Assembly: GCF_032118995.1 (NCBI RefSeq)
Contig: NC_092659.1
Location: 15,494,177 to 15,558,176 of the forward strand
Source: Asterias amurensis
Taxonomy: Eukaryota; Echinodermata; Asteroidea; Forcipulatida; Asteriidae
Direction of reading: 5' to 3'
Length of the DNA stretch: 64,000 nt
Shown here: positions 1 to 39,235 of the stretch, one piece after another
Layout of the letters: every line of letters begins with the position of its first letter
Numbering within the stretch: the first letter of the stretch is position 1
The notes under the pieces: generated by a model
What the model was told of the DNA's origin: nothing
The model's input: only the letters and a program-made list of their open reading frames with translations
Databases searched by the model: none
Made by a program: the position numbers and the translations under genes

Positions 1-922
1 CTGCAATCTCCTTGAAGAGACGGGCTTTTTCCTCTTTAATATTCTTTCTGATTATTCTGACAGCTTCCCTAACTTGCTCCCTTAACCCCAATGACTGCCG
101 TTCCAAATTTGCTCTGTCTGCAGCAATGGTCTCCAGGGTGGATCTGTAATCACCAAGTGCTTTCTGAAGACTTGTAATCATCTGTTTGGTTATGTTCCTC
201 TTTGAGGATGCAGCTGATTCTATTTTAACAAACTTGTGCTGAGATGCTCCTCTCCACCCAGGAGAAATACTCCTCACACTCCTTAGATCAATTTCAGGAC
301 AGTCTTTGCAGACCACGTCATTACAAGTCTCACAGAAGAACCTGTGATCATTTGGACATTCCTCCGTTCTCTTTTCCCTTCGGAAGGTCTTAGTGACCTC
401 TCCTAGACAAAGCTCGTCCAGCGAGGCAACCGTATGTTTTGAAAGAGCAGCAATGCGCCGATGTGCCGTCTTGCAGGTAAGACACATGTACATGCAACAA
501 TCAAGGCATCTCGACATGGCCCCTTTCTCAAGATCACACAAATCACAAGCCGGCTGACTGAACTCCTCAGTTAACAATTCCTCTTTTACCAGTGCATCCT
601 CTAGTTGTCCGATAAGGTGAAAGTTGGTTTCCAAATTCTGGACACCACAACCGGGTGTTTTTGTTGTTTGTTTGCACAATGGGCATGTAATTGACCAACT
701 ACCACTCCAAACACAAAAAGACCCTTGATAAACCAAGCAGTTTTCACAAAAGTTATGCAAACACTGTAAGACTTTTGGGGTCTTAAGTCTCTTCTTGCAG
801 ATACCACATTCCATTTTGTTGCGGACTATGATGCCATCAGGTGGGTCAGAAATTTTGTCTGCCATTTTGCTAACAAAAGTCACAATTTCAGAGAGAGAGA
901 TTGGTTGTTGCCAGCTTGGCAT
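1..922 (-). CDS. TRIM-like RING/B-box protein, N-terminal exon (partial, runs off the left edge)
   Basis: The minus strand is open from an ATG at 922 (alternative ATG at 865, better Kozak context) to base 1. The translation matches exon 1 of the complete TRIM gene at 15,486-16,680 almost throughout. A RING finger shows as CGICKK, then CLHNFCENC, then CPLC. Two B-box-like zinc modules follow (CDLCDLEKG...CLDC...[25 protein letters not shown]), then the start of a coiled coil. I saw no stop in the part present. Compared with the other copy, the RING loop before CPLC is a few residues longer and many positions differ, so this is a diverged but apparently intact paralogue. TRIM proteins are usually RING-type ubiquitin ligases. 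Downstream exons lie outside the window, so whether it also carries the FG/RanBD part is unknown. As in the other copy, an in-frame TGA lies 15 codons upstream of the ATG, which limits the start. Confidence 0.8.
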   Translation of the reverse strand, partial: MPSWQQPISLSEIVTFVSKMADKISDPPDGIIVRNKMECGICKKRLKTPKVLQCLHNFCENCLVYQGSFCVWSGSWSITCPLCKQTTKTPGCGVQNLETNFHLIGQLEDALVKEELLTEEFSQPACDLCDLEKGAMSRCLDCCMYMCLTCKTAHRRIAALSKHTVASLDELCLGEVTKTFRREKRTEECPNDHRFFCETCNDVVCKDCPEIDLRSVRSISPGWRGASQHKFVKIESAASSKRNITKQMITSLQKALGDYRSTLETIAADRANLERQSLGLREQVREAVRIIRKNIKEEKARLFKEIA

Positions 923-1413
923 ATAACCCCATGGGAGCTTTGCCAAATGCTCTTGTTGGGAAGATCATCTAAACAAAATGAACAAACAAAAAGATCTCTG
1001 TTGTAGTTAAAAACCTAAAAGAGACTACACAAGCAATACAAATAACTTTCCTCAATTACAAAACCATCCATTGCTAATCGTTTTGTAAGAGTTTAGAGCG
1101 ATCAAGAGATAAGCCTCATAGACAAAAACAATATCTAAATCCAAATAATATACAATTATACCTTCTTGTAATTCTCCCACCCAAAGCACTCAGTATTTTG
1201 TCTTGCAAGGTATGTGCAGCTACATTTTGAAGTATGAGATATAATCCTGTTGTAGCGCCATGAACTGGTTTACAAATTTCTGTGGCACAGTATGCTGCCG
1301 TATAAGAACCGAGAACACAGCTAAGTGAATCCCTTCTCTTTACGATAAGGGCACTGGGTTCTTTAACAAGTATTACATAAAGTAGGATTTGAAACTTTGC
1401 ATGGTGGAAATAC

Positions 1414-1560
1414 GAATATAGAAAGGTTTGCGGTAACACCATGTAATCTCTAATGAGTTGGGGTGAAAGAGTTAGAGTTGAAACCAACGGTTCTTTTCAG
1501 AACCACCCAAACTCGTTAGAGATAGTCATTACATGGTGTTACCGCAAACCTTTCTATAAG
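1414..1560. repeat. Inverted repeat with GGTTTGCGGTAACACCATG arms
   Basis: Arms at about 1,420-1,453 and 1,514-1,557 are reverse complements around a loop of about 60 bases. The same arm sequence ends the element at 63,472-63,812 and occurs alone just upstream of gene B (41,095-41,117). It looks like a non-autonomous terminal-inverted-repeat element. The duplicated locus carries the same structure at 17,177-17,315. Confidence 0.6.
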
Positions 1561-1735
1561 TATTACATAGCGCACGGGACCTTGCTTTTATTACACAGCG
1601 CACATGACCTATGGCTTTACAGCCCATCAAGAAGGACACAGCAACAATGGTTAAGTGTCTTGCTTTTAAGGACACAAGTGTCATGACCAGGACTCGAAAC
1701 CACTGATTAGACATGAACAAGAACATCAAAGTGCG
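1560..1735 (-). mobile_element. SINE-like fragment, reverse orientation
   Basis: The stretch with 'cttgcttttaaggacacaag' followed by 'tgtcatgaccaggactcgaa' is the reverse complement of a tRNA-type B-box region. A plus-strand relative lies at 55,190-55,545 (GGGTTTGAATCC, then the 'cgtgacacttg' motif). The duplicated copy is at about 17,290-17,480. Confidence 0.45.
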
Positions 1736-1985
1736 TGAACGTAGGGCTATTGCATATAGTCGATGTTTGCACTCCATAAATACAAGGTTCAATGTCAAAT
1801 GGAAGTCTTGTCAGGTCATTTGATCATAACGTAGGGCTATTGCATGTTTCTCAAAGTCATCTCATTATTTGATCTGGGAATAGACAGTGTCATGATAAAC
1901 AGTCACCATTGAGCTTAACAGTGCACCTCTGAACCATTAGCTTTGAAGGAGATTAATGCACTTGTGTTACATTTTTTTACTCTTT

Positions 1986-2346
1986 ATTAAAGACACTGGA
2001 CACTATTGGTAATTGTCAAAGACCAGTCTTCTCACTTGGTGTATCTCAACATGTATGCATAAAATAACAAACCTGTGAAAATTTAAGCTCAATTGGTCGT
2101 CGAGTTGCGAGATAATAATGAAAGAAAAAACACCCTTGTCACACGAAGTTGTGTGCGTTTAGATGGTTGACTTCGAGACCTCAAATTCAAATTCTGAGGT
2201 CTTGAAATCAAATTCTACGTCACTTCAGAGGGAGCCGTTTCTCACAATGTTTTATACTATCAACCTATCCCCATTACTCGTTACCAAGTAAGGTTTTATG
2301 CTAATAATTTTTTTGAGTAATTACCAATAGTGTCCACTGCCTTTAA
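1986..2346. mobile_element. Dispersed TIR element (GGACACTATTGG family), about 360 bp
   Basis: The left end is ACTGGACACTATTGGTAATT and the right end is its inverted counterpart, CCAATAGTGTCCACTGCCTTT, flanked by TTAA/TTTAA-like bases. No coding capacity is visible. Other copies lie at 6,418, 15,247 (partial), 17,737, 22,155, 22,687, 31,910 (partial), 39,887-40,930 (several pieces), 43,164, 50,037 and 61,618. A non-autonomous DNA transposon (MITE) is the simplest reading; the superfamily is unresolved. Confidence 0.7.
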
Positions 2347-2997
2347 TTGTTTTTTTTTTTTTAGCTTTGTCACATAATTATATCCCCCCCTAAAAGAAAG
2401 GTTAATTACGTTAATACATACATACATACATAACTAAATATTTGTAAAGCGCCTTTACATCAAGATCAAAGCGCTGAAAAGACCAAAACCAATGGAACTT
2501 TGGGATTGTGGGAATGTTAAAAAGTTACAAAAAAAATTAAAAGAAACTGGGAAACTTATGAGCGAAAATGGATTGTGTGTTACTCAGAATCCAGCCCCAA
2601 TTTTTTGTAACACCAACCGTTTTTCACTGCACCTAAAAAAATTAACTGAATTGTAAAGTGTTTGGGGGGGTTGAATGAACATTATTAAAAGAGAAAAAAA
2701 CACACAATGCAAGACAACAAGTCCTTTAAAACTACAATACAAGTTCTATCCCGTAAGTCAAGATTCTCGAAAAACGTCACTAGCTCATGCTTCTAGAACT
2801 ATGAGGTTTGTTCAGCTACCGTCTCTTGTCGAGTGAGACGGTTCTAGGGGTACACTAGCTCTTGGAGTCAACTTACAGATGGTATACTTCATTTGGTAAA
2901 AGTTTGATAGTGTTAGTGTTTACCTTGACCTTTCTGTGTGTGTTTCAGTTTAAAGCATTTGCCTACAATACAAAAAAAAACATCAAACCTAAGAGTT

Positions 2998-3427
2998 ATA
3001 CGATGCCTTGGATTGGACGACTTGGTCTTTGAAAAGCATTTGAAACCGTTTGTTATGAAATGCAATGGTTAGTAAGATGTGTTAAAGGTAGAATCGTATA
3101 TGACTCAAAATTGCACGGTTTTCCTTTTTTGTCGCGAACTAGTTGCGATAAAGGAACTCTCCTGCCGTCGGCAGGAGGGTTACGTCATCGCAACTAGTCG
3201 CAAACTAACACGGTCGACCATTTTATGGTGTCAAAAATTTGACTCCACAAAATGTCTGACCCTGTTTCTTCGCAACATATGGAAAACCGTGCAATTCCGA
3301 GGTGTTTGTGTGGATCATTATAGTCTACTTTTAAATAAATAAGTAATAACCATTTGCATTTCTTAACAAATGGTTTCAAACGCTTTTCAAAGACCAACTT
3401 GACAGATCCATGGCAACGTGTTCCTTT
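2998..3427. mobile_element. Long-armed foldback element
   Basis: The two ends ('ccttggattggacgacttgg' and its near reverse complement near 3,400) and an inner pair around a centre near 3,235 form one long hairpin. The outer motif 'gtttgaaaccgtttgttatg' pairs with 'aacaaatggtttcaaacgc'. Sister copies are at 18,508-18,915 (in the segmental duplication) and 62,087-62,432. No open frame of interest. Confidence 0.65.
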
Positions 3428-4007
3428 AAGTATAAGTGTTAGTGTAAGTTTAAAGGAATACTCACAAAAATTAGCAGCCAGAAGTTCACACCGTACCCAT
3501 ACCGTTGCTTGAGCACTCGACTTGTTGCAGGACTGGAGGCCTGTATTTAAGGGGGGGGGGGGGGCATACAATTTACAAAAATAATCATTTCTTGGCATCA
3601 CTTTATCATTATGCAACCCAAATCTTGCTGTAATGAGAGATTCTGTATTTGTGCCACGCACATGATGTAGCAAAATGTATGTACAGGGTGTTGACTACCA
3701 CCTATACATGTACGCCTAGCTGTAGACAGTATCAATTTCTCTTGTGTGTTACAGTGTTGCGTGTATACAAAATGTGTGCAGGTTCAATGTTAAACGGGGG
3801 GATGTTGTTGTCGCACGTAATAGACGGTACCAACTCAAATAATAGTAGAAGTTCATGGAGGTGACTTGGACCTTGGACTTGACACGAAGAAACCTTTGGT
3901 ATATTGATCAACTCGCCACGTATACACGACAACATCCACACATCACTGACATACAACTACAATGCGCACTGCTCAGCGGTTCCGCATTTCTCACAGCTGC
4001 CGTAAAC

Positions 4008-4018
4008 GGGGAATCCCC
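4008..4018. promoter_or_regulatory. Candidate Rel/NF-kB site GGGGAATCCCC
   Basis: A perfect 11-bp palindrome of the kB type, about 3.1 kb upstream of the left TRIM start. It is preserved at 19,520-19,530 upstream of the second TRIM gene. The same 11-mer recurs in gene B intron 7 (47,927-47,937). Whether it works as an enhancer or is simply part of a dispersed repeat cannot be told from sequence. Confidence 0.3.
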
Positions 4019-4160
4019 AGGTGTGTGCAATAAAGTAGACTCGTCCATAGTCGCTTCCAAACTTCCAAAGGGGGGTTTAACCCATGATGGATTTTAGTTC
4101 ATTATGCGAGCTGCACGTGTGCTTGTCGTCATTAATAGTAAATAGTAGTCTTTTGTTAGT

Positions 4161-4524: not shown

Positions 4525-5520
4525 GTCAGATTATCACAAGAACAGTTATAACAACTGTTGTTAGAACTATTATTATCAGAACTGTTATAAAAATTATTAT
4601 CAGAACTGTTTTAATAACTTGTTAATAAGGACTGTTACAAGAACCGATATCAGAGCTGTTATTTTAACTGTATAATGAGAACTGGTTTCAAAACTGCTAT
4701 CAGAACTGTCGTCAAAACTGTTGTCAGAACTGTCCCATTGCTTTGGAAAGTTTATGAACTATTATAAAAACTGTTCGAGCTCTTTATCAGAACTGACGTT
4801 ATCAGAACTGTTGTCAAAACTGTTGTCAGAATTGTTGTCAGAACTATTATTAGAACGATTAGAGAACTGTTATCAGAACTGTTATCAGAACTGTTGTTAG
4901 AACTGTTATCAGAACTGTTATCAGAACTGACGTATATCAGAACTGGTGTCATAACTGTTGTCAGAACTGTTATTAGAACTGCTGTAGAACTGTTATCAGA
5001 ACTGTTATCAGAGAACTGTTATCAGAGAACTGTTATTAGAACTGTTGTCAGAACTGTTATTAGAACTGTTATTAGAACTGTTTTTAGAACTGTTGTCAGA
5101 ACTGTTATCAGAACTGTTATTAGAACTGTTATTAGAACTGTTATTAGAACTGTTATTAGAACTGTTATTAGAACTGTTATTAGAACTGTTATTAGAACTG
5201 TTATTAGAACTGTTATTAGAACTGTTATTAGAACTGTTATCAGAACTGTTATTAGAACTGTTGTCAGAACTGTTATCAGAACTGTTATTAGAACTGTTAT
5301 TAGAACTGTTATTAGAACTGTTATTAGAACTGTTATCAGAACTGTTGTTAGAACTGTTATTGGAATTGTTGTCAGAACTGTTATCAGAACTGTTATTAGA
5401 ACTGTTATTAGAACTGTTATTAGAACTGTTGTCAGAACTGTTATCAGAACTGTTGGTAGAACTGTTATCAAAACTGTTATCAATTGTCAGTAGAACTGTT
5501 ATCATAACTGTCTTCAGAAC
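4525..5520. repeat. 12-bp minisatellite (AGAACTGTTATT / AGAACTGTTATC)
   Basis: A tandem array of 12-mers, degenerate at 4,525-4,850 and nearly pure from about 4,855 to 5,480. Because 12 is a multiple of three, every frame stays open and gives spurious repetitive peptides such as RTVIRTVI or NSSNNSS. I do not regard these as genes. A decayed array of the same motif in the opposite orientation lies at 20,755-21,425. Confidence 0.9.
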
Positions 5521-9400: not shown

Positions 9401-12400
9401 TTATTGCTGATGCAGTGAAGACGTTGTTGCTGCTGTGGTGGTTGTTAATGCAGTAGAAGCTTCTGTTACTGCTGTACAAGTGATTGTTGTCGCTGATCTA
9501 GGAGAGAGTTCCGTTGCTGCTGTGGTGGTTGCTGCATCGGTAACTGCTGTCCTAATTGATGCTGTGTTCTCTTCCATGGTTTCTGGTGATAACAATAAGT
9601 CATCTTGAACTTCATGATATATTTAGTAAACCTGTCCTTTAGAAAATAGACATCATTTACATATAAAGTGTTCCCTTTTATTTAGCCTGGTCCTTTTTGC
9701 TGACTGAAGCTTTGTCAAAGGCAACTTTCACTGTCAAACTCGCACATTATTTCAGGGTAACCGAAAATAAGTTTTATAAACATCCATAGAGATATCCCAG
9801 CTAGATCCTAGTTTTTTAAAAGTCTATATTATAGCTGTCACATCAGGGAAAATGAGCAATTGTAGGGTAGGGATCGAGAGCATAGAGATAAATATTCTGC
9901 TTAAAAATATTACCTTGTTCAGTTCCTTTGCTATCATCTTCTAGTTTTCTCAGCTCGGCCTGGCATTCTTTAAACGTCACCTTGAAGCGCTGAGTTGTTC
10001 CCGCCAGCTTGAAGCGGACTGCCAGCTGCTCAGGTTGAGGTTCACCGTCCGATGCATCCATGGCCCGCCAGACCAGGGAGTTCTCCGAACCTGCATTAGG
10101 GAGCAAGGCCATATCCTTGGTGATGTAGTGATTGGCACATACCTAGAGATGACAGAGATTGAAAAATCAGATATTCAGTTTTCCCAATCTGCAAGTAATG
10201 AAGTCGAGTTGTGTAAAAGAAATGTCAGAAAAAAAAAACAGTTGATGCTAAAAGAAAACAGTGATGTTCTGGCAGAAACCCTACAAAATAAGACCCAGGT
10301 TTTTGCTCACATTAATTAGTTGGTTCAAGGTTCAAGGTTCATTTTATTCTAGTTACAGGTAGTAGGTTCTTATATTTTGGGAAGGACCCTTAAATTGTAA
10401 AAAGGCATGTTAACTAAGCTGAATCTCCTAAAGATTGCCTGAAGGTGACTTTTGGAGATTCAAATTTTCATGCTGTCTGTTCGCGAATGCTACGGCCATA
10501 GACTCCACTGTGACCTGCGCTCAGTGTGGATGGATTCGATGCTTTGTGAAAATACTGATAGTTTTTTCCTGTTTCTTACAAGGTAGACATCGTGTTCAGC
10601 TGAAACTTTCGCTGCTAACTTTATATATCTTTATTGATAATCCTGTAAAACCCAGCATTGAACGGGTATATATGCCCTGCAAAAGCCCTGCAAAATAATT
10701 AGGCCCTCAGGGCTGACTTACTGGACTGCTGATGATGAAGGAACACCAAGCACACAACAGCCTCATCAAAAACCAGGAAAATTTGCGATCAACACTAGTG
10801 CATATACATATTCCAGCCATTGACTCTTATGCATCAACCTCAAGAAGAGCTTGGATACTTCCCGCCGAAATACGCATCCCTTAAAACTATAGCTCATTAG
10901 CAGTCCAGCATTCTCCTGAAGATCAGCAGAGTACACTACTGGTCACGTTGAGCTCTGTTGTAACCCCCTGCTTTTTCCAGAGCCAACACTCCTCACAAGA
11001 GAGACATGGTCATAGCCAAAAGCATGTTAGTGATAGTTACATTTTCTGTCGAGAAAACATTGCCAACTCAATTTAATTTGATAATAAGCAAACAGAGCAT
11101 TGGTGCATGACTTTGCCTAATTACCCTGAACACCTGATCTCTCCTCATGAGGATCCGATATCGTCCCGTCTTAACATTCTGCAGAATCTTGATATCTCCG
11201 ACCCCTCTATCCTTCCACTGGGACGAGGTCTTATCGTATCGGTAAAGCTTGGCACGGGAGCAGAACAGCTGGTTCTCGTCCTCTTCACCGGTAATCTTCT
11301 CCAACTGTTAACAAGAAAACACAGGTTGAACTGACGAACTCTTAACATTAGCCTTGTACAAGTTTAGATGCTCAAGGCAGTCAAGATGCAGTAAACCCAC
11401 CCGCATTCTCAAATACTAGGGACTACAGCATCTTAAGGAACACTTTCAACCACCATTATCTTTAAACAGTGTAGGTTTAATGTAAACCTCAGGACGGTTG
11501 TGTTTTGTGTCGAACAAATAGTACCTTAATCGTTGAAAGGAGCCACATCTCATTACTGACCTGTTCAGGGAGTTGAACGATTGGATAAAAGTGAATATCA
11601 TCTCTCTCCTCGGTCATGCTGTCATTAATGCTACTCCCCGCCGCCTCCTCGTCCTTAGATGATGATTCAGCCTCACTCATCTCCTTCTGTTTCTGGGCGT
11701 GGCTGGCATTGGCATTACGCAACAACTCCGAGAATGACTTTAAGACGTTTGGATCATAAGATTTGAAAGTTGGGGATACGTCATCACCTGTTTTAATGAT
11801 GGAGTGGACAGGAGAGAAAGAATCATATATTTGTTCAACTTGGATTTCACAAGAAAACAAAAAACAAAACCAAATACAACTTTCAGAGGATGGTCCCGTT
11901 TAAAAAAAAGGAGTGCACAAGGGTTAACCCCGGGCCATCAGAATTTTTGTGCATTTATACCATAGGTAACTTTGATTGGTAAGCAGTTAGCAACAGCTGA
12001 AGAAATGAGAGTAGCATTAATCTACCCTTACCCTAAACCTTGTGTGTACTTAAACCTGTATTCTTCCTTAATCCATAAAATTACAATGAGTTGCGGTCAG
12101 GTTGGTGTAGACTATGGTGTCTAGCCTCGCCTTTTACTTGGACCCTGGTTCGTATCCCACCAGGGTACTGTGTTGATTGGGTTTTTAGTCCCTATGTGCA
12201 CGACGTGACTGCGTGGGTTTTCCCTGGAATAATTTTTTGGGGCTTTCCTTTTACATCTTTTAAAATCTAAATTTCTTCATTGTCTTCTCTCTTGGCTCAA
12301 GAGCGTCAAGAATAAATTTTCCACACCAAATTATTTGTGGACCATGTCAGATTTATATTCCAGTATGAAGGGCATCATTACCTGTAAAACATGTCCTGTT

Positions 12401-15400
12401 ATTTTGGCTCAACTTGGCTAATCATACTGGGTGAATTCGAATGACTGTTTAGAAGTGATGGTTAAAATACACAAGAAAATGGAGCTTAGATCGGGTTACA
12501 ATATTACCTCGAGTTGTGGCATCTTTTTGGTCCTCACCTTGTGTTGTAGCTTCTCGCTCTTCTCCACCTTGTGTTGGTTTGTTTTGCTCATCTTCATCTT
12601 TTTCATCACCTTGTTCTGTAGCATCTTGCTCTTCTTCTCCATCACCGTTTGCACCTTCATCCTCCTCCCCCTCACCCTCGTCAACACCATTGTCATCTTC
12701 ATCGTCATCTTCATCTTCATCAACATATGTGTCTTCTTTCTCAGCTTTCTCTGTCTTATCCTCTTTGTTGTCTCCATCTTTAATCTTGACTGCATCTCCT
12801 CCTCCTGTCTTCATGTCCTCCTGGGCTGCTTCAACTGCCTCCTTGAACTGCTGGGCCAACTCTTCCGTTTTGAATCTCACAGCCAGCTGTTCTATATGGA
12901 CTTCACCCTCAGGTGCATCCATTGCCATCCAAACCCAAGACTTTGTCGATCCAGCCATCGGCTGCAACTTCAGTTCCGGAGTGACAAAGTGATTGGCACA
13001 GACCTTCAAGACTTGCTCTCTTCGCATGACAATGCGATATTTTTTGGTGTCTGGGTTGAACAGGACCTTGATGTCCCCAATACCACACTCTTTCCACTGG
13101 GCGGACTCCTTGTGGTAGCGGAACAGCTTGGCTCGATGACTGAATCTTACCTCCTCGCCTTCTTCACCGGTTCTCACCTCGATACATTCTGGCAACTCAA
13201 TGAAGGGGTCAACTTCTACACTTTGATTCAGAATAGGTGACTGTGGTTGCTGGGCTAACTTAACTACCCCAGAAGATTTTGGGTTGACCAGTGATTTCTC
13301 AGGAGCTTCTTGTTGAGTGTTGCTGACATCCATGCGGAAGGAGAAATAAGATGCCTTTGTTTTGGCCATGGCAGCAAAATTTAATCCCATGGATTTTTCC
13401 TCACTGGGCATGGACAATGCTGGAGGCGCACTGCTCTTGAGAGTTTGTGATGAAAGGCCAACTGCTCCAAAAGCAAATCTTGTTCCTTTCTTGCTTGGAA
13501 GGATCTCTTTAGATTGGTCCTGTTTATCTTGGGTCAGTGCTTGAATCTGGCTCTTGGAAGGGGCAGCTGTGGAAGGGGCAGCTGTGGAAGGGGCAGCTGT
13601 GGAAGGGGCAGCTGTGGAAGGGGCTGCTGCAACAGTTTCACTCTTTGGGGTGGTTAAGCTCCTTGCACTGGATGTAAAGCAAAAACTGGCACCAAGATCG
13701 TATTTCGGGAATGCATTACCATAGGTTAATAGTCCTGCAGGTGTACTCGATGCAGCACTGCCAAACTTTGCTGGAGGTGATTTCGAAGCAGCACTGCCTA
13801 ATACTGCTGCAGGTGTACTCGATGCAGCACCGCCAAACACTGCTGCGGGTGTACTCGATGCACCACCGCCAAACACTGCTGCAGGTGTACTCGATGCAGC
13901 ACCGCCAAATACTGCTGCAGGTGTACTCAATGCACCACCGCCAAACACTGCTGCAGGTGTACTCGATGCAGCCCAGCCAAATACTGCTGCAGGTGTACTC
14001 GATGCAGCACTTCCAAATACTCCTGCAGGTGTACTCGATGCAGCACTGCCAAACTTTACTGTAGTTTTAGTGAAGGTAAACTTTGGAGCTTCTGGAGGGG
14101 AGGTTGTGAATGGTTTTGTCGTTGCAGAAACTGTAGTAGGCTTCGGGAGATACTTTGATGGCAAATGAGGTTGAACTGGAACCCTTTTTAATGGAGAACA
14201 TTTCCTAGTTGTTTCAGCTGAAGATGCTATAGAGGCTTAACAAGTAAAATAAGAAAAACAGTTCAATTCAATTTAATAATACGTTTATTCCATACTCTTG
14301 AATAAAAAGAACAATTGTGAGAATTAAACAGTACATAGAAATGTAACAAAACGCATTAAATTGTACAGAAACAATATAATCTTTAAGCAAATAATAATTA
14401 AGGAAATAACTATAGGAATGAACTATAAGTAACAAAATTTAATAACAAAACAAAATAGGACACAATCCTTCAATCCTTTCAGCTTGAATTTTACTATATT
14501 GCGCCTGTGGCAAACACTGCCACAATGCATCTTGAGAATTTCAATTAGTTGCGACTATTGTCGTAACCACAACTATTTGAGGAGCGACTAGTTGAGTAGT
14601 AAATTTCACTAGCCCAGGCTTTACAGGGTGAAAAGGGCTATAGTAGGCCTGAATATTTTCTTCTGATGGAAAGCACCACTTCAATCTACATTTAGAATAT
14701 GAACTTATGGCTGTGACATTGACTTTATTTTTAAAGCTGGTGTCTTCCAGACAGTGGTTTGTCAATGGAGCTAGCTGATGGCAATCAGATTTTATATCTA
14801 ATTTTTATATATGCTTTTTTTTCGAACAAAGCTTAGCAAACAAAATTATCAACAGAAAATTCATTTAGTAACACTTACCTCCCTTTGATTGATGATCACA
14901 CTGTTGATTACCTAATAGACAAAAATAACAAAAGAAGCCACAATAACAAAAATTGTATTACAGTCTTTTCATAATTTGTTTTATACTACCGGTATTTGTT
15001 TATTTGTAGGGGGGGGGGGAGTGAGGAGGGGGCCGACTTTGTTTAAAAGTTAATTCTGTTAACAATGAAATCACTTTTTTAATGTATTGATTTCATTGTT
15101 ATGTTGAGCCTGGGTCTTTTAAAAAAATATGTTATTTGTTGCCATCAAGTTTTTGGGTTAGGAAAATGCTTGGTTCATTCCAACTCCTTTTCTACTCTTC
15201 CTATTCTTTCCTCCTTTCTGGGGCTATGTGATTGAGGTTATAAGTCTGAAGGCACTGGACACTTTTGGTATTTACTCAAAATAATTGTTAGCACAAAAAC
15301 TTGCGCGGTAGTTCGAGCAATGGAGAGCTGTATATTATATACAATATTGTGAGAGACGGCTCCCTCTAAAGTAAAAAACCCCAGTAATTTTCCTCTAAAA

Positions 15401-16680
15401 CATTTAGGGGAATTCAAATCATAGTTTATGTAGGCCTATCTGAACAATATTGACCAGAGTTGCATACATTTTTCCGTATACTTACAACTATAAGAGCGAC
15501 CACTTGGATCCATCAAACCACCAATACGTCCGCTGTTTTCCCTGGTGAATGTCCAATGTGGTAATCCACTGTAGATTCTGTCAGGTCCCTTTCTTGTCAG
15601 ATCTTCAAGATTGTTGTTGATGAGTGAAACTAAGCCAAGGAAATCCTGATCTGAAGCAGTGTCAGTGACATTGATTGCCATTTCTAACGAATCACTCATG
15701 CGCTGCATTGCAGCCTTTAGACACTTTTCACTTTCTTGTAGAGTTTTCTCTTTCCTCTGTTGAATGTCGGCAATCTCCTTGACGTGACGGGCTTCTTCTT
15801 CTTTAATCTTCTTTGTGATTGCTCTGACAGCTTCCTTAACTTGCTCCTCTAACCCCCTTGATTGACCTTCCAAATTTGCTCTGTCGACAGCAATGCTCTT
15901 CAGGGTGGATTTGTACTCACCAAGTACTTTCTGAAGACTAGTTATCATCTGTTTGGTCATCTTCCTCTTTGAGGATGCGGCAGAATCCATCTTCACGACC
16001 TTGTGCCGAGATGCTCCTCTCCAACCAGGAGAAATACTCTTCCCACTCCTTGGATCAATTTCAGGACAGTCTTTGCAGACCACGTCATTACAAGTCTCAC
16101 AGAAGAACCTGTGATCACTTGGACATTCCTCCGCTCTCTTTTCCCTCCGGAAGGTCTTGGTGACCACTCCTACACGAAGCTCGTCCAGCGAGGCAACCGT
16201 ATGTTTTGAAAGAACAGCAATGCGCCGATGTACCTTCTTGCAGCTAAGACACAAGTACATGCTACAATCAAGGCATCTCGACACAGCTTCTTTCTCCACT
16301 TCACAGGACTCACAAACTGGCTGATTGTTAAGTGACTCCTCACGTAACAGCTCCTCTTTGACCAGTGTATCCTCTAGTTGTCCGATGAGATGAAAGTTGG
16401 TTTTCAAATTCTGGACACCATTACTGGATGTTGTAGTTTGGTAACACAATGGGCATGTTATTGACCAATAACCCATAGACACTTTATTAAGCAAGCATTG
16501 TTCACAAACGTTATGCAAACACTGTAAGATTTTGGGGTTCTTAAGTCTCTTCTTGCAGAAAGCACATTCCAGTTTGTTGCGGACTATGATGCCATCAGGT
16601 GGGTCAGAAACTTTGTCTGCCATTTTGCTAACAAAAGTCACAATTTCAGAGAGAGAGATTGGTTGTTGCCAGCTTGGCAT
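9401..16680 (-). CDS. TRIM-FG-RanBD fusion protein (RING, two B-boxes, coiled coil, FG repeats, two Ran-binding domains)
   Basis: Coding exons, all with GT-AG borders: 15,486-16,680; 14,879-14,911; 12,508-14,235; 11,561-11,787; 11,125-11,304; 9,914-10,142; 9,401-9,582 (TAA). Phases agree at every junction, giving 3,774 nt and 1,257 aa. RING at residues 39-79 (C39, C42, C54, H56, C59, C62, C76, C79); B-box-like modules at about 123-162 and 186-226; coiled coil at about 235-345; nine 12-aa FG-type repeats from about 472; RanBD-1 at about 748-884; an acidic stretch; RanBD-2 at about 1,048-1,190 over three exons; Thr/Ala-rich tail. Both RanBDs keep the WK(E/D).G.GD.K core and VCANH. RING domains usually recruit ubiquitin E2s, RanBDs bind Ran-GTP and FG repeats bind transport receptors, so a nuclear-pore or transport-linked ligase is inferred. 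The start could instead be 16,623 (better Kozak); an in-frame TGA at 16,723-16,725 stops extension. Joining of exons 1-3 rests on splice sites and phase only. Confidence 0.85.
12095..12310 (+). mobile_element. tRNA-derived SINE-like element in intron 3 of the TRIM-RanBD gene
   Basis: The segment starts with an A-box-like 'gttggtgtagactatggtgt' and has a B-box-like GGTTCGTATCC near 12,150, then a T-rich body containing 'gcgtgggttttccctgg'. This is the layout of a tRNA-derived SINE. The ends are uncertain. Confidence 0.5.
13556..13628 (-). repeat. In-frame 15-bp coding repeat (TAAPS units)
   Basis: Four to five nearly identical 15-bp units (ggaaggggcagctgt on plus) in exon 3 of the TRIM-RanBD gene encode repeated TAAPS pentapeptides. 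The array lies between the FG repeats and the first RanBD and extends a disordered linker. Confidence 0.85.
13714..14062 (-). repeat. In-frame 36-bp coding repeat (FG repeats)
   Basis: About nine 36-bp units encode 12-residue repeats of the pattern (V/K)FG(S/G)AASSTPA(A/G). Eight keep the FG dipeptide and one reads VLG. A further isolated FG (RFAFGAVG) lies downstream. FG dipeptides spaced by Ser/Ala/Thr/Pro-rich linkers are the hallmark of nucleoporins that bind karyopherins. The period is a multiple of three, so copy number can change without breaking the frame. Confidence 0.9.
15247..15400. mobile_element. Partial TIR element (GGACACTATTGG family) in intron 1 of the TRIM-RanBD gene
   Basis: One end (AAGGCACTGGACACTTTTGG) and the adjoining 'gagagacggctccctct' block are recognisable; the other end is missing. 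Confidence 0.55.
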
Positions 16681-17736
16681 ATAACCCCATGGGAGCTTTG
16701 CCAAATGCTCTTGTTGGGAAGATCATCTAAACAAAATGAACAAACAAAAAGATCTCTGTAGTAGTTAAAAACCTAAAAGAGACTACACAAGCAATACAAA
16801 TAACTTTCCTCAATTACAAAACCATCCATTGCTAATCGTTTTGTAAGAGTTTAGAGCGATCAAGAGATAACCCTCATAGACAAAAACAATATCTAAATCC
16901 AAATAATATACAATTATACCTTCTTGTAATTCTCCCACCCAAAGCACTCAGTATTTTGTCTTGCAAGGTATGTGCAGCTACATTTTGAAGTATGAGATAT
17001 AATCCTGTTGTAGCGCCATGAATTGGTTTACAAATTTCTGTGGCACAATATGCTGCCGTTTAAGAACCAGAACACAGCTAAGTGAATCCTTTCTCTTTAC
17101 GATAAGGGCACTGGGTTCTTTAACAAGTATTACATAAAGTAGGATTTGAAACTTTGCATGGTGAAAATACGAATATAGAAAGGTTTGCGGTAACACCATG
17201 TAATCTCTAATGAGTTGGGGTGAAAGAGTTAGAGTTGAAACCAACGGTTCTTTTCAGAACCACCCAAACTAATTAGAGATAGTCATTACATGGTGTTACC
17301 GCAAACCTTTCTATATAAGCATTACATAGCGCACGGGACCTTGCTTTTATTACACAGCGCACATGACCTATGGCTATACAGCCCATCAAGAAGGACACAA
17401 CAATAATGGTTAAGTGTCTTGCTTTTAAGGACACAAGTGTCATGACCAGGACTCGAAACCACTGATTAGACATGAACAAGAACATCAAAGTGCGTGCAAC
17501 TGTATAGTCGATGTTTGCAGTCCATAAGTACAAGGTTCAATGTCAAATGGAAGTCTTGTCATGTCATTTGATCATAACGTAGGGCTATTGCATGTTTCTC
17601 AAAGTCATCTCATTATTTGATCTGGGAATAGACAGTGTCATGATAAACAGGTCACCATTGAGCTTAACAGTGCACCTCTGAACCATTAGCTTTGAAGGAG
17701 ATTAATGCACCTATGTGCTACATTTTTTAACTTTTT

Positions 17737-18113
17737 ATTAAAGACACTGGACACTAATCAAAGACCAGTCTTCTCACTTGGTGTATCTCAACATGTATGC
17801 ATAAAATAACAAACCTGTGAAAATTTAAGCTCAATTGGTCACCGAAGTTGCGAGATAATAATGAAAGAAAAAACACCCGTGTCACACGAAGTTGTGTGCA
17901 TTTAGATGGTTGATTTCGAGACCTCAAATTCAAAATCTGAGGTCTTGAAATCAAATTCGTTGAAAATTACTTCTTTCTCGAAACTATATGTCACTTTAAG
18001 AGGGAGCCGTTTCTCACAATGTTTTATAAGCAACAGCTCCCCATTACTCATTACCAAGTAAGGTTTATGCTAATAATTATTTTGAGTAATTACCAACAGT
18101 GTCCACTACCTTT
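17737..18113. mobile_element. Dispersed TIR element (GGACACTATTGG family)
   Basis: Duplicate of the copy at 1,986-2,346, carried along by the segmental duplication rather than inserted independently: the flanks match on both sides. Both inverted ends are present, slightly decayed. Confidence 0.65.
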
Positions 18114-18507
18114 GATTTTTTTTAAATTTTGTTTTTTAGCTGTCACATAACTATATCCCCCCCTAAAAGAAAGGTTAATTACGTTAATACATACATACAT
18201 ACATACAAATATTTGTAAAGCGCCTTTACATCAAGGATCAAAGCGCTGAAAAGAGCAAAACCATGCAATGAAGTCTCGAAAAACGTCGTTAGCTCCATGC
18301 TCCTAGAACTATGAGTTTTGTTCAGCTACCGTCTCTTCGTCGAGTGAGACGGTTCTAGGGGTACACTAGCTCTTGGAGTCAACTTACAGATGGTATACTT
18401 CATTTGGTAAAAGTTTGAAAGTGTTAGTGTTTACCTTGACCTTTCTGTGTGTGTTTCAGTTTAAAGCATTTGCCTACAATAGTAAAAAACCCATCAAACC
18501 TCAGAGT

Positions 18508-18915
18508 TATACGATGCCTTGGATCGGACGAGTTGGTCTTTGAAAAGCATTTGAAACCGTTTGTTTATGAAATGCAATGGTAAAGATTACTGTTAAAGGT
18601 AGAATACACAAGTATATGACTCAAAATTGCACGGTTTTCCTTTTTTTGTCGCGAACTAGTTGGCAGGAGAGTTATGTCATAGCAACTTGTCGCAAACTAA
18701 CACGGTCGACCATTTTATGGGGTCAAAAATTTGACTCCACAAAATGTCCGACCGTGTTTCTTCGCAACGTAAAAGGAAAACTGCAATTCCGAGGTGTTTG
18801 TGTGGATCATTATAGCCTACTTTAAAAAAAAATAATAAACATTTGCATTTCATAACAAATGGTTTCAAACGCTTTTCAAAGACCAACTTGACAGATCCAT
18901 GGCAACGTGTTCCTT
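18508..18915. mobile_element. Long-armed foldback element
   Basis: Duplicate of 2,998-3,427. The central part has lost some bases relative to the left copy, but both arms remain. Confidence 0.6.
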
Positions 18916-19519
18916 TAAGTATAAGTGTTAGTGTAAAGTTTAAAGGAATACTCACAAAAATTAGCAGCCAGAAGTTCACACCGTACCCATACCGTTGCTT
19001 GAGCACTCGACTTGTTGCAGGACTGGAGGCCTATATTTAAGGGGGGGGGGGGGGGCATACAATTTACAAAAATAATCATTACTTGGCATCACTTTATCAT
19101 TATGCAACCCAAATCTTGCTGTAATGAGAGATTCTGTATTGTGCCATGTAGCAGACTATATATATGTACAGGGTGTGTTGACTACCAGATACATGTACGC
19201 CTAGCTGTAGTGTAGACAGTATCAATTTCTCGTGTGTGTTGTGTATACAAAATGTGTGCAGGTTCAATGTTAAACGGGGGGATGTTGTTGTCGCACGTAA
19301 TAATAGACGGCACCAACTCAAATATAGTCGAAGTTCATGGAGGTGACTTTAGTACTAGTAGTATCAGTTAAGGAAATAATATGCAACTGAACCTTGACTC
19401 GACACGAAGAAACCTTTGGTATATTGATCAACTCGCCACGTATACACGACAACAACATCACTGACAACTACAACACGTACTGCTCCGCGGTTCCGCATTT
19501 CTCACAGGCTGCCGTAAAC

Positions 19520-19530
19520 GGGGAATCCCC
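19520..19530. promoter_or_regulatory. Candidate Rel/NF-kB site GGGGAATCCCC
   Basis: Same perfect palindrome as at 4,008-4,018, about 2.8 kb upstream of the TRIM-RanBD start codon. Conservation of all eleven bases in both copies is compatible with function, but the flanks are also highly similar. Confidence 0.3.
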
Positions 19531-20754
19531 AGGTGTGCAATAAAGTAGACTCGTCCATATAGTCGCTTCCAAACTTCCAAGGGGGGGGGGGGGAATTCGC
19601 CCATGATGGATTTTAGTTCATTACGCGAGCTGCACAAGAGATTCCCGGCCAGGGTCATGTGAGTTGAGTTGTGCGTTGGTTCTCTGCTGTGCTACGAGGG
19701 TTTTCCAGACTATTCGGTTTTCCTCCCTCTGGAAAATCAAACACTTTCGATATTGGCTGTGCTCCGGTGGTCATTATTTGTTGATGTGGCTGGCAGCTGA
19801 AGTGCCCTTGCATGCCTGCTTCTCGAACACGTTGTAGCCGCGTCCTTCACAATTCAGCTCTAGCTGCGAGTAAGGATGTTTATCCCCCCAAATTATGTAT
19901 TTATTTGTTTATCAAAATTCTGTTCAGTTGATTTGAAATAAAAAGTATGGACACAACAATAAGAGGATGGAAATGAATGCCGTCTTAAAATGTTCTTGTT
20001 TTTAATCGCAGCAATACAACCTGCTTCGATGACTAGACAAGATCGATGACAACTGACAACCCACGTATAGCATGTTTAGATTAATGAAGTTTTATGTTCC
20101 GCAAATTGGGTGATATAGTCAACTGGTGCATGGTAATTATATTTTCAGTCGAGTTAACATTTAAATCGATTACAAAATAGTCTCGGCTGCAGTCAACAAG
20201 CGATTTGTGTTTATTTTACGGAACACAACTCCTCTGTAATTATTTTAAGACTTTGATTTATTTATGGTGTCGGACATGTTTATGTTGTTCCTTGATTTTG
20301 AAACCTCTAAAACGGCTCGATTATAATAGGCTATATTGTGTAACTCAACAAGACTCCAAAAGCACAATTAAAGTATCCTCGCTCAAACCGTGTCTGAATG
20401 AGTGGCTGTTGCTACAGTTGCGACTACGGACGCATGATGAAGCAGCGATCAAGCCAAAGACGTGCCACAAAATCACACACGGCCCATGTAACAAGTACAC
20501 ATGCAACAGTTGATTCCTAGGTGAACATTTCAATACAACCTACGTACATGTGCAGAGTGTCATAAAATTAACAAGTTATGTTAATGTATTCATGCCCTTA
20601 GCAGGGGAAGCTTAAGAGTTTTCAAATTACAAAATGTTAAGTTGAATGCAAACTGTAAGTTTCAATTACTCTAATATTTTTAATTTATGTTGGTGATGGC
20701 GGGTATTCAATCGATAGGAGCGATGTAAGAAGTCAAGAGTTATGATTATAGCTC

Positions 20755-21425
20755 TTTAACAGTTCCAGTATTTCACTAGAAATTCTGGTGACAGTTCTGC
20801 CTACTGGATACAGCTCTGATAACAGTTATGTTACCGTTCTTATAAAAGCTCTATTTAACAGTTCAAGTAAAAAGTTCTGAAAGCAGTTCTAAAAACAACT
20901 CTAGTGACCGTTCTTTATTTCTTTTAACAGTTCTAATTACAGTTCTGGTAACAATTCTGATAACAGTTATGGTGCAAGTTATGACAACTGGTAACAAACA
21001 ATTCTGATAACAGTTCTGAAACAGCTGACAAAAAATCCTAATAAACGTTCTGATAACAATTCTGATAATAGTTTGTTCCATCTCTATTAACAGTTCTGCT
21101 GACAGCTCTGTAACAGTTCATGTAAAAACTCTGGCAACACTTCTGATAACAGTTCTGTTACCAGTTCTGATAATTCTGATAACAGTTATAATTATGTTAT
21201 ACCTACATCCCAACTATACGGGGGATCGCGTAGTTAAGTGAGTGTGAATAACATGATCAGGCACCGAGACTACATTTTCAGAACGTAGTAAGAACGAGTT
21301 CGGATGGAAGTTTTTATGAAAAGTTCTGGTAACACTTCTTTACACTTCTGGCAACAGTTCCGATGGTCCGATAACATTTTTGATAACAATGTACTTCTTG
21401 AATCACTTCAGATAACACGTCTGAT
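20755..21425. repeat. Degenerate AACAGTTCTGAT minisatellite
   Basis: Many imperfect 12-mers of AACAGTTCTGAT, the reverse complement of the unit at 4,525-5,520, interrupted near 21,190-21,300. It is much more decayed than the left array and in the opposite orientation. Confidence 0.75.
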
Positions 21426-24800: not shown

Positions 24801-27800
24801 CATAGAATGTGACCCTTTGTTTTCCCTTTTGTGTTTTGTCCTAGGTTTCCACAAGGTAGTGATTACTAAATCACTGCTTCCTGCGTGTAGACGTTTTTAA
24901 GTTCACACAGGGTTTCAAGTTTCAAGTGCGGATCTCTAACTCTGTTCTCTAGTCCACAAACTCTACCTTATTTTTCTCAAAAACTTGACAACTTGTTTAG
25001 CTGAAACTTCAACAGGTAAACTACATTAATCTTCTTTCACAGTGAGTAGGGATTTATGGCATGGCCAAAAACCACATGTAACCAGAGGTATCAACAGACA
25101 CAATGGCTGCCTCCATTCCCTGTATTTGAAGTTCCTTCGTGAATTTACCTGAAGAATATAGTTGTAGAGCTTTGAATAGTGTGTCTTTAAGTCAACCTCA
25201 AATAATGCTTTCAAGGGCTTTTTCATTTCTTTTTCCAGTTTAGTTCGATCTGTCTCCCTCTTCAGTGGAAAGTACTGCTTTTTCTTTTCTTCACTGAACT
25301 TGAGCTCCTCCATCTGCAAAAAATAGTTTTTCTTCAAGTATTACTTTTATTGTTATCTCCTGGCGATGACTAGTGCAAGCTAGTCGAAATAAGTTCAGAC
25401 CAATTCAGAACTCACTCCGCGGTATTGAAGCAAATGACGAGGACTCCCCTCGATTGATCGAGGGGACTTCTCGTTAAAGTCGTAGTTAGAGTAGCAGTCC
25501 CAGCAAGACCGTTCTTTTCAGAAGTATGAAGTCTCCCGAATACCACAAATATACTCCTCTTAATAAAGTATAATGTAACGCAAGATAGTTCTCATTTTGT
25601 CCAGTAGTAAAACAACAGTTGGAAATGACGAGAGATAGTTGTTCCTTTTTAGTAAGGGAGAAAGACCGAATCATTTCTGGATTTATAAATAATGTTTGGG
25701 CGAATAATACTCCTTTTACTAGACTTTTGGAATCAGCAGCTTGTAAGATTCTGAATAGATAAAAGTTTCTACAGCAAATCAAGCATTATACTTAGACACG
25801 CAGTTAATATCGTTAGATTGTGGATTTTTGTGGATGTTTTATGTTAAGGTTCGTTCACTTTTTTATTCAACGGACTATCATGCAAGGCTGTAAACATTAT
25901 TCCTGCGTAGTGCCACAACATCTTTGAACATAGTATCGTCTGATAAATAATTGTGGGTAATGTCAAATAAAGCAACGAACATCTTTAATGGTGAGGGTCT
26001 GTTATGATAAATAACTATTGTTCCTGTAATGTACCTGGAATTTCACAACGATGTGATCCAACAGAGGGCGTGCTTTCTCACAGCAATCCACCGCGGCCTT
26101 CAGAACACAATCCTTGACTGCATTTCCTCCTGCCTCACTCAACATCAACTTGACCGATGTACTTCCCGGATCCTCTTGAAGTATTTGTCTCTCCATGTCG
26201 AAATATTGCTTTCGTGCGTCTGAGTAGAACTCATCCTGACTCAAGAGGTCTGTGATATCTTGCTTGATCGTGTCACAATCCATGCCCATTTGATCGGAGT
26301 CTTTATCACGGCTGGTCAGACCTCCTTGGAAGGAGAGAGGCTTGTACTCTGTGTGGAGAGAGCCGCTAGCATCTCTTGAGCAACACATGTAGATTTCTGC
26401 GAGAATCTGTATTGGGGAAATATTTTTCATAATTTTGCATCGGTGATCAAGACCATTAATTGTGGTTTTACCTATCAACACCGATGTGTGTTAGCACACT
26501 GTATATTCATTACCCAGTATTTTCCCCGAGTTTTGTGAGAACAAGTGTTACCTTTGAAGGCTGAAGTTTACTAAAGCTCTCATAATGAGCCTTTCAATAT
26601 TATTAAGATAGTTTTCGCCCCAAACTTGTTCTAAATCGTAACCCTGAATAAAGACGTCATTGGAAATTTTGGGTTTTACCTGCCCGATTATCTCCAAACG
26701 GGTCTGTAGGACAAAACTATCATAAACATTTAAATAGATACATTTGAAAGTCAAGCAGTTTAAAAAGTTCGGTTTAATCTTTTCAAGAGCAATAGTATTA
26801 TTATTGAGTTTGTTGATTTGTAGGCCCTTAAGAAAATCGTGGACACCAACAGCTCCAGTTTATGATTGGGGGGGGGGGGGGGGGGGGGGCTGAGAGATAT
26901 TCTATGCAATGCGATGATTGTTATTGCTTGTTTATGCTTTAATTTGTTTACATGTGAATGTGAGTTGAAATCTTACCCTGATATACATTGATCTTGAAAT
27001 TGTCTTGAGGTGACCTTTCTCGATCAGACGCAATAGCTCCACACTTGCAACGAGGCTTCCACATCTGCTGGCCTCTCGGTAGGCATCAATGCACGGCTCA
27101 TTTACCGAGTCTGGTGGGGTTGGCTGCAACCGAGGAGTCTCCAAGCTTTCACTGGTCAGCCGGTTGTGTGCAGTCCACAGAGCAATATCAGCAAGCAGCT
27201 TTCTACCTCGCGATTCGTCAAAATCACTCATTTTCGATGCAGTCAAAACGTTCTCTCGAGCCCTTCTAAACATCACAGCTGCTTCATGTGGTTGGCACTG
27301 CCTTAAATGAGACTGCACTTCTAGTTTGCATCCCCATTTAAAATGGATCTCTGCGAGGTTCATTGGGATCTCGATATTGCTCCTGGGATCCAGACGAATC
27401 AAGGCCTTCTCAGCCTTTGCAAATTCGAACATTTGAAGATACAGATTGCCCAGCTTAAGGTATTTGTGTTCTACTCGTCGTGTGCACTCGTAGTAGGTAA
27501 TAAGTTTCTTGTATGCCCTGTCCCTGTCGACCTTTATCCTGTCCGCTACTTTCCACTCACCAGAGCTCTCATCTTGATACTGCATTTCCGTCGAAATGTC
27601 CATCACACGCTCCCACATTTCAATCATAGAGCTTGACTTGGTACAGTCCAGAAACTTGGCATAGCAGTAGAAGAGATGGAACCGATCCTGAGGTGATAAA
27701 ATATCGGACTGTTGTAGTCTGTCTTGGTAGAGACGTCTTGCTTTTTCTATATCTTGCAACTGACCACGTTTGGTCAGTAAATCAAGCTTTTTCGTTAAGG

Positions 27801-28812: not shown

Positions 28813-29127
28813 GGTGGTAACTTTAAACCTTTTCAAAAATAATTGATAGAACAAAACAAGTGTACGAATAAATCGTAAGCATTTTGGAAGTGTTTTTACT
28901 TATAGGTATTTAAACTCCCCCCTTTCCAGATAAAATTAATAATTTCGAAAAGAGCTGCTAAAAACAGAACATGGCCGAACCCTCAAGTGAATCATTTACA
29001 GAACTAGAAGCTAATCATCAGACCTGTCAAACTCTTTCAACCAGTGTTGACGAATAGGGATCTTGTTGGTGTAGCCATGGAGGAAGAATGAATTTTCTGT
29101 TGCAAGTTTTTTGAAAAGCATGTGTGC

Positions 29128-39000: not shown

Positions 39001-39235
39001 TCTGAGTTGCTATCGTTGTTGTCAATGTCTAAGTTGCTGTCATTGTTGTCCATGTCTGAGTTGCTGTCATTGTTGTCCATGTCTGAGTTGCTGTCATTGT
39101 TGTCCATGTCTGAGTTGCTGTCATTGTTGTCCATCTCGACTTAGCTATGGTCGTTGTTGTTAATGTCTTAGTTGCTGCCATTGTTGTCCATGTCTAAGTT
39201 GCTGTTACTGTTGTCCATGCCCGATTTGCTGTCAT
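33030..39235. repeat. 27-bp satellite array with higher-order repeats, first copy (6.2 kb)
   Basis: The unit contains GAGTTGCTGTCATTGTTG followed by TCCATGTCT; more than 200 copies are present. Higher-order periods are visible: the block at 34,381 recurs at 35,439 (1,058 bp) and 36,659 (1,220 bp), and blocks at 36,011 and 37,231 are also 1,220 apart. Their difference, 162 bp, is six units. A separate block of about 807 bp repeats at 37,854 and 38,661. The unit is nine codons long, so long repetitive open frames appear on both strands (for example DNNDSNSDM). The composition is strongly strand-asymmetric (T/G-rich on plus). Confidence 0.95.

Follow-up and report, generated by a model that had tools for sequence, protein, structure and literature searches.

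The locus examined here lies in a window of 64,000 nucleotides from the starfish Asterias amurensis and raises the question of whether a TRIM-type exon and a nucleoporin-like block on the same strand belong to one gene or to two, and what a protein combining them might do. The DNA is best read as one joined gene, to which we assign a probability of roughly 0.75. The whole explanation, in which a TRIM would be spliced onto a RanBP2/Nup358-type tail with the origin and mechanism proposed below, is favoured with somewhat less assurance.

The candidate gene is located on the minus strand. The seven exons proposed in an earlier, sequence-only reading are borne out: all six introns have GT-AG borders, the phases match (1, 1, 1, 0, 0 and 1), and the spliced frame of 3,801 nt contains no internal stops and would encode about 1,260 residues. 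In the predicted product, a RING, two B-boxes, a coiled coil, a microexon, nine FG motifs and two Ran-binding domains (RanBDs) follow each other in this order. Exon 1 (15486..16680) encodes the RING, B-box 1, B-box 2 and the coiled-coil helix, and ends in phase 1 at the donor GTAAGTAT. Exon 2 (14879..14911) is a microexon of 33 nt that runs from phase 1 to phase 1 and, as had been claimed, keeps the frame at both of its ends; the frame also survives if it is skipped. Exon 3 (12508..14235) contains the FG-repeat region, RanBD-A and most of an acidic linker, while the end of this linker and the start of RanBD-B are found in exon 4 (11561..11787), the middle of RanBD-B in exon 5 (11125..11304) and its end in exon 6 (9914..10142). 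The uncertain exon 7 (9401..9582) supplies a Thr/Ala-rich tail and the stop.

Splice sites were scored with general consensus frequencies that were not trained on A. amurensis. On this scale, the microexon donor ranks 2nd among the 8218 GTs of the window and its acceptor 72nd among the 7290 AGs, and they form the sole acceptor/donor pair of such strength spaced 9-89 nt apart on both strands of the window. Lowering both thresholds by 2 bits yields seven microexon-type pairs, three of which have a length that is a multiple of three. The exon 1 donor (rank 299/8218) is perfect on the intron side and poor on the exon side, and the exon 3 acceptor ranks 497/7290; the strength of both is middling. 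The window contains 23 copies of the hexamer GTAAGT (shuffle mean 37), two of which are the donors of exons 1 and 2. Codon scores, which were trained on two IFIT-like open reading frames taken to be coding, place exon 1 barely above the 95% mark and do not distinguish the microexon from non-coding DNA; in exons 2 and 7, the proposed frame was outscored by one on the opposite strand.

The proposed borders of exons 1 to 6 stand, and the start of exon 7 is uncertain. Its original acceptor at 9609 scores -5.0 (rank 4106/7290), and an acceptor at 9582, in the same frame, scores 1.9 and gives a product of 1,257 aa. The C-terminus is uncertain because the acceptors at 9834, 9631 and 9343 score higher (2.9, 2.1 and 3.3, respectively) yet yield short tails. 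A transcript containing the TRIM part only is also possible, since the frame of exon 1, if not spliced at its donor, stops after 414 codons at 15436, and since AATAAA motifs are present in introns 1 and 2 (15004, 14729 and 14289).

The N-terminal part has the RING, B-box and coiled-coil order of TRIM (RBCC) proteins. Pfam recognises the RING (16444-16566, minus strand, as are the other features of this part) as zf-C3HC4 with an E-value of 8.7e-6, two B-box stretches (best 1.1e-5) at about 16186-16326 and about 15991-16131, the latter bounds being set by eye, and a PML-type coiled coil (2.3e-6). The coiled-coil helix, at about 15664-15969, is also seen in a structure prediction of the TRIM exon (mean pLDDT 45.5), in which a helix of about 100 residues (238-339) is mostly of high confidence and the remainder is poor. 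In the tail, a Pfam search with E-values up to 1 gave Ran_BP1 as the sole match, and no B30.2, NHL, filamin, PHD-BRD or FN3 domain was found. The missing class domain does not bar TRIM membership, since some TRIMs, those of class V, are described as having none (PMC3137616).

Whether the RING would be active is doubtful. Patterns and alignments indicate that all C3HC4 zinc ligands are kept, and the nearest solved RINGs are those of TRIM2, TRIM3 and TRIM56 (E 2e-14 to 3e-10), although Pfam found neither an NHL nor a filamin domain in the starfish tail. Compared with TRIM2, the linchpin arginine is replaced by tyrosine, on which our doubt about ligase activity is based, and the isoleucine in the first CxxC is replaced by phenylalanine (CAFC). 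Both positions are presumably E2-facing. A second TRIM exon 1 is located at 2..922 on the same strand, open to the window edge, beyond which any 3' continuation would lie, and encodes a RING, B-boxes and the start of a coiled coil; its RING has a lysine at the linchpin and CGIC as the first CxxC. The 5' flank of the fusion exon (16681..18263, minus strand) is duplicated at 923-2491, and 16 of 818 sites differ between the flanks from 17500 to 16681. The fusion could be on its way out or be non-catalytic, as ftr52 (discussed below) may be; the joined protein would then be made as a pseudoligase or a decoy, engaging transport complexes but adding no ubiquitin to them. This alternative is rather unlikely, and is the best of those considered. 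It would fit the linchpin and CxxC residues of both copies and a dN/dS between the copies of 1.57 in the RING, a value resting on few changes (18 nonsynonymous and 3 synonymous), with 0.71 for the whole compared exon, which is not clearly below 1 (one-sided p 0.085). The retained zinc ligands, the absence of any stop or frameshift over 3.8 kb and the indels between the TRIM copies, all three of which are multiples of three, speak against it. Published findings on other TRIM RINGs point both ways: TRIM6 and TRIM22 are inactive, in part through a linchpin glutamine, whereas TRIM32 is active despite a linchpin serine (PMC11992055).

The tail starts with a single FG patch, upstream of RanBD-A. Residues 410-760 contain nine FG motifs, whereas 2,000 composition shuffles averaged 1.35 and never exceeded 6. 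This excess is inflated because seven of the nine, spaced 12 residues apart, sit in a tandem repeat of 36-nt units (13735-14054). Two Ran_BP1 stretches follow (Pfam, 6.4e-96). Together with the TRIM domains, they confirm the domain composition given in the sequence-only reading. Scores against PDB sequences, the only set compared, support the nucleoporin origin suggested there and refine it to RanBDs of the RanBP2/Nup358 type. Here, RanBD-A (about 12809-13219, minus strand, exon 3) scores highest with human RanBP2 RBD3 (150.6 bits), and RanBD-B with frog RBD2 (167.8), human RBD1 (164.6) and human RBD4 (164.2), in each case above RanBP1. Among RanBP2 domains, identity is highest to human RBD3 for RanBD-A (52%) and to human RBD4 for RanBD-B (62%).

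By sequence comparison, both domains are therefore classed as RanBP2/Nup358 type, and RanBD-B is on balance RBD4-like. The tree places neither firmly among the four RanBP2 RBDs: kinship with RBD3 and RBD4 is weakly supported (61/67 and 31/65), RanBD-A is nearest to RBD4 by path length, and RanBD-A and RanBD-B as mutual closest kin are not rejected (p 0.29). The eight RanBP2 domains used for comparison, from human and frog, read WKERG at a site where RanBD-A has WKECG and RanBD-B WKDRG. The structure of RanBD-A, predicted for the domain alone, has a mean pLDDT of 38.9. The starfish gene shares with RanBP2/Nup358 the RanBD type, FG motifs ahead of RanBD-A and a second RanBD that is on balance RBD4-like, and differs in its RING-TRIM N-terminus. 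Pattern searches of all six reading frames across the window turned up no credible RanBP2-type zinc finger or cyclophilin, Pfam found no cyclophilin in the tail, and no SUMO-ligase repeats were recognised there by eye. Two FADVV matches (five residues) and a lone CANH at 45734 (four residues) were dropped as being without context. The neighbouring TPR exons are IFIT-like; their PDB matches are to IFIT2, weakly (1e-4 and 3e-4), and not to RanBP2.

An improbable alternative is that two same-strand genes are present: a TRIM ending at 15436 and a RanBP2-like fragment that either has its 5' exons elsewhere, with the TRIM nested in an intron, or begins within exon 3, with the ATG at 13411 as its start codon. 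Some TRIM genes consist of a single coding exon, and the in-frame stop 16 codons beyond the exon 1 donor and the three AATAAA motifs would suit such a gene. However, exon 3 starts directly after an in-frame TAA adjoining its acceptor, and its first ATG is codon 276. The FG part therefore requires an upstream exon, and a start at this ATG would relegate 275 open codons, and with them every one of the nine FG motifs, to the leader. Between exons 1 and 3, no first exon running from an ATG to a phase-1 donor was found at a score of at least 0; at scores down to -10 there are six candidates, all at or below -5.3, and none offers the nucleoporin part a credible coding exon of its own. A parent gene with more distant 5' exons would need to extend across an IFIT-like exon that lies upstream on the same strand (26932-28899). 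A tblastn search with the fusion protein revealed no further RanBD in the window outside the fusion gene. For a complete RanBP2 gene with the TRIM in one of its introns, tblastn and motif patterns gave no supporting match within the window. The strong splice sites and matching phases of the microexon also argue for the joined gene.

Such a union has a natural precedent. Zebrafish ftr52 (finTRIM 52) is reported as a transcribed RBCC-RanBD-cyclophilin A chimaera with a junction established by cDNA (PMC3137616). As in the starfish gene, an RBCC is joined through splicing to the C-terminal portion of a gene resembling RanBP2, but ftr52 is a fish finTRIM with one RanBD, cyclophilin A and a stop codon in its RING exon, whereas the starfish gene has FG motifs, two RanBDs, an open frame, a TRIM2/3/56-like RING and no cyclophilin that could be found. 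The view that there is no known TRIM-FG-RanBD family may be correct for this precise combination, and fails as a statement that there is no precedent. TRIMCyp of owl monkey and macaques likewise joins a TRIM core to a C-terminal domain from another host gene; there, a cyclophilin A retrocopy lies in the trim5 locus (PMC3137616), in contrast to the multi-exon, RanBP2-type starfish tail. The engineered TRIM5-Nup358Cyp, which inhibited HIV-1 (PMC3234246; PMC3930637), shares the TRIM and the Nup358 piece, but is man-made and uses the cyclophilin. Among the literature matches listed, ftr52 and the engineered fusions were the only TRIM-RanBD or TRIM-Nup358 fusions. Viral contigs, a weak place to look for relatives, gave 9 short-pattern stretches for the TRIM exon and 15 for RanBD-A, and no relative.

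For the joined gene, an origin like that proposed for ftr52 is probable, in which a TRIM exon landed either ahead of or within a RanBP2-like gene, which may itself have been an incomplete copy. The product, if transcribed as we presume, would dimerise through its coiled coil, and the tail, in which the FG patch is followed by an RBD3-like domain, the acidic linker and another domain of RanBP2 type, would dock with its FG patch and paired RanBDs, near the pore's cytoplasmic side, on complexes of Ran-GTP with a transport receptor such as Crm1 or importin-beta. Given the gene, we consider the chances of such docking to be even. Crm1 is described as a binding partner of a piece of RanBP2 that comprises FG patches together with RanBDs 3 and 4, and the binding is tighter with Ran (PMC4866044). 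The RING, if active, could then ubiquitylate the receptor, its cargo or another user of the same route.

An antiviral role, even granted docking, is less likely than not, and an aim at the nuclear import of intruders is a guess, with which the IFIT-like neighbours and the TRIM duplication are compatible. That the protein is a pore-mimicking restriction factor, a natural counterpart of TRIMCyp whose Nup358 tail baits a Nup358-docking virus or parasite for the TRIM to disable, is unlikely: the HIV-1 block by engineered TRIM5-Nup358Cyp (PMC3234246, PMC3930637), the IFIT-like neighbours and the TRIM duplication would suit it, but the capsid-binding part of those fusions, as described, is the cyclophilin, which a motif search did not find in the starfish gene, and the IFIT2 match is weak. 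Also speculative is a broader account in which TRIM cores have been joined to a Nup358 tail more than once in animals. The starfish product would then be an intact pore-mimicking TRIM aimed by its RanBDs and FG motifs at Ran-loaded transport complexes. Its TRIM head, located beside IFIT-like genes, would be tandemly duplicated, and gene conversion would preserve the similarity of the promoter and first 36 codons of the two copies as their RINGs and bodies drift apart.

TRIMCyp is the precedent for a TRIM that gains a new target by taking up a host domain. If the joined reading is correct, the starfish gene would be a second case of a TRIM and RanBP2 joined in nature, here intact and lacking cyclophilin, and would indicate that TRIMs have repeatedly adopted the nuclear-transport machinery itself as bait or address. 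The authors of the ftr52 study suggested that such a union may give a transient benefit and be hard to fix (PMC3137616); the starfish gene would put this idea to the test, and would provide a natural protein with which the steering of ubiquitin ligation to Ran-GTP/exportin complexes could be tested.

The candidate gene on the minus strand runs through seven exons, at 16680-15486 (exon 1, with the frame opening at 16680), 14911-14879 (exon 2, a microexon), 14235-12508, 11787-11561, 11304-11125, 10142-9914 and, for exon 7, from 9609 or 9582 to 9401. The introns and the gene content suggest an animal source. As proposed in the sequence-only reading, all six introns have GT-AG borders, the phases fit and the frame stays open; with exon 7 from 9609, its 3,801 nt contain no internal stop. 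The domains named in that reading are all assigned by Pfam: RING, two B-box stretches and a PML-type coiled coil in exon 1, followed by two Ran_BP1 stretches (RanBD-A and RanBD-B), which are separated by an acidic linker. Nine FG motifs lie between the TRIM and RanBD halves, seven of them spaced 12 residues apart as a tandem repeat. AlphaFold2, run on this TRIM and on a second copy in the window, gave a poor overall model (mean pLDDT 45.5), in which helix 238-339 is mostly of high confidence, in keeping with a TRIM coiled coil.

The TRIM and FG-RanBD exons probably belong to one joined gene, for which the sequence suggests odds of about three in four. The FG part depends on an exon upstream of it, because an in-frame TAA abuts the exon 3 acceptor, with the frame opening directly after it, and the first ATG of exon 3 is codon 276, downstream of all nine FG motifs. 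No ATG-bearing first exon with a phase-1 donor scoring at least 0 was found between exons 1 and 3; with the threshold lowered to -10, six ATG-to-phase-1-donor candidates appear there, all at or below -5.3. The microexon donor ranks 2nd among the 8,218 GTs of the window and its acceptor 72nd among 7,290 AGs (both strands), and they form the sole pair of such strength on either strand with a spacing of 9-89 nt. With both thresholds 2 bits lower, seven such pairs are present, and the spacing is a multiple of 3 in three of these. GTAAGT is rarer in the window than expected by chance (23 sites, mean 37), and exons 1 and 2 both use it as their donor. By codon score, the proposed frame beats the other two same-strand frames in all seven exons; in exons 2 and 7, an opposite-strand frame outscores it. 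Compared with the 95% mark for non-coding sequence (0.156), exon 2 scores lower (0.10) and exon 1 barely higher (0.163). Against a joined gene stand the middling exon 1 donor (rank 299) and exon 3 acceptor (rank 497), the stop after 414 codons when the exon 1 donor is read through, and AATAAA in introns 1 and 2. Dispersed repeats, each with several more copies in the window, were observed at 15249-15375, in intron 1, and at 17738-18113. By eye, about 12080-12260 in intron 3 resembles a tRNA-derived SINE; ARAGORN found no tRNA in the window.

The 3' end is less firm. The exon 7 acceptor at 9609 scores -5.0 (rank 4,106 of 7,290), and that at 9582, in the same frame, scores 1.9 and gives 1,257 aa. 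Since the higher-scoring acceptors at 9834, 9631 and 9343 (2.9, 2.1 and 3.3) give short ends, 3 to 16 residues beyond exon 6 (1,200, 1,203 and 1,213 aa), the Thr/Ala-rich C-terminal tail is not certain. This doubt leaves the RBCC, FG and RanBD parts untouched, and the odds for the joined gene are therefore unchanged.

The second TRIM copy (2-922, minus strand) is an exon that stays open for 307 codons up to the edge of the window, beyond which any RanBP2-type tail of this copy would lie. Pfam recognises a RING and two B-box stretches in it, the B-box scoring 22.6 bits, below the cut-off of 24.1. Window 3-2491 duplicates 15770-18263 (90.6%), and 2765-4116 duplicates 18274-19635 (86.4%). From 17500 to codon 36, the copies differ at 17 of 926 sites (16/818 and 1/108), against 102 of 797 in the remainder of the compared exon (p 4e-20), and divergence jumps from about 2% to 13% at about 16573 and 815, the end of codon 36 in each copy. 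Synonymous divergence in the compared exon is 0.16, so protein selection alone fails to explain this contrast; the promoter and N-terminus have probably undergone recent gene conversion or recombination, which would account for it. In the compared exon, 76 nonsynonymous and 29 synonymous changes give a dN/dS of 0.71, a value not clearly lower than 1 (p 0.085), and all three indels are multiples of 3. The duplicated 5' flank also contains Rfam histone 3' stem-loop matches at 17241-17286 and 1484-1529 (plus strand; 39.0 and 36.5 bits), the former within an inverted repeat (17173-17316); no histone gene was noticed beside either. An array of 12/24-nt units of the AGAACTGTTATC type, with several open frames on both strands, lies at 4539-5520, and units at 20925-21187 are, by eye, its reverse complement.

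RanBD-A matches best to RBD3 of RanBP2, at 150.6 bits for the human and 147.0 for the frog protein, and the top scores of RanBD-B are with human RBD1 (164.6), human RBD4 (164.2) and frog RBD2 (167.8 bits); RanBP1 scores below the RanBP2 domains for both. A ten-row tree places RanBD-A beside RBD3 (61/67) and RanBD-B beside RBD4 (31/65) with weak support, and a grouping of RanBD-A with RanBD-B is not rejected (p 0.29). By path length, RBD4 is nearest to RanBD-A, and RBD3 is the most identical (52%). RBD3 followed by RBD4 is the order in the C-terminal part of RanBP2, which RanBD-A and RanBD-B would match. Pattern searches of the rest of the window recognised no cyclophilin and no RanBP2-type zinc finger.

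The nearest solved structures to the RING are TRIM2, TRIM3 and TRIM56. Its zinc ligands are retained, with CAFC and CPLCY where TRIM2 has CSIC and CPVCR and the second TRIM copy CGIC and CPLCK. Most RINGs have His, Lys or Arg as linchpin; TRIM6 and TRIM22, with Gln, are inactive, other changes contributing too, and TRIM32 is active with Ser (PMC11992055). Given these changes and precedents, the RING is a candidate ligase that may or may not be active. RanBD-A has WKECG and RanBD-B WKDRG, where all eight RanBP2 domains used for comparison, from human and frog, have WKERG; the predicted domains may therefore have kept or lost affinity for Ran.

The earlier view that no such family is known needs qualification: zebrafish ftr52, a transcribed RBCC-RanBD-cyclophilin chimaera with a stop in its RING exon, precedes it, although FG repeats with two RanBDs set the present gene apart. 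Its authors propose that ftr52 arose when ftr exons 1-4 were inserted into a RanBP2-like gene, with a speculated transient antiviral benefit (PMC3137616). A designed fusion of TRIM5 to the Nup358 cyclophilin inhibited HIV-1 (PMC3234246). The gene described here differs in that it is unbroken and combines FG repeats with two RanBDs, and in that a cyclophilin was not found; no further natural TRIM-RanBD gene was among the literature matches listed.

Crm1 export complexes are reported to bind a piece of RanBP2 that carries RanBDs 3 and 4 together with two FG patches; both patches are required, and the RanBDs act in cis (PMC4866044). The predicted fusion protein carries two such RanBDs and a single FG patch on a TRIM core. 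Most simply, it would be a soluble or pore-edge TRIM docking on complexes of Ran-GTP and transport receptors. Among its neighbours are large, IFIT-like TPR exons at 26932-28899 (minus) and 41135-43030 (plus), whose single PDB hit within an E threshold of 0.001 is IFIT2 (1e-4 and 3e-4); an IFIT gene survey judges its invertebrate candidates not to be true IFITs (PMC3688568). By eye, the smaller exons following the two are alike, and another large TPR exon (50637-51164, minus) closely repeats the beginning of the one at 26932-28899. Long arrays of 27-nt minisatellites with a similar unit (33045-39236 and 58552-61043) flank the plus-strand gene. An antiviral role of the fusion gene would be compatible with the IFIT-like neighbours.
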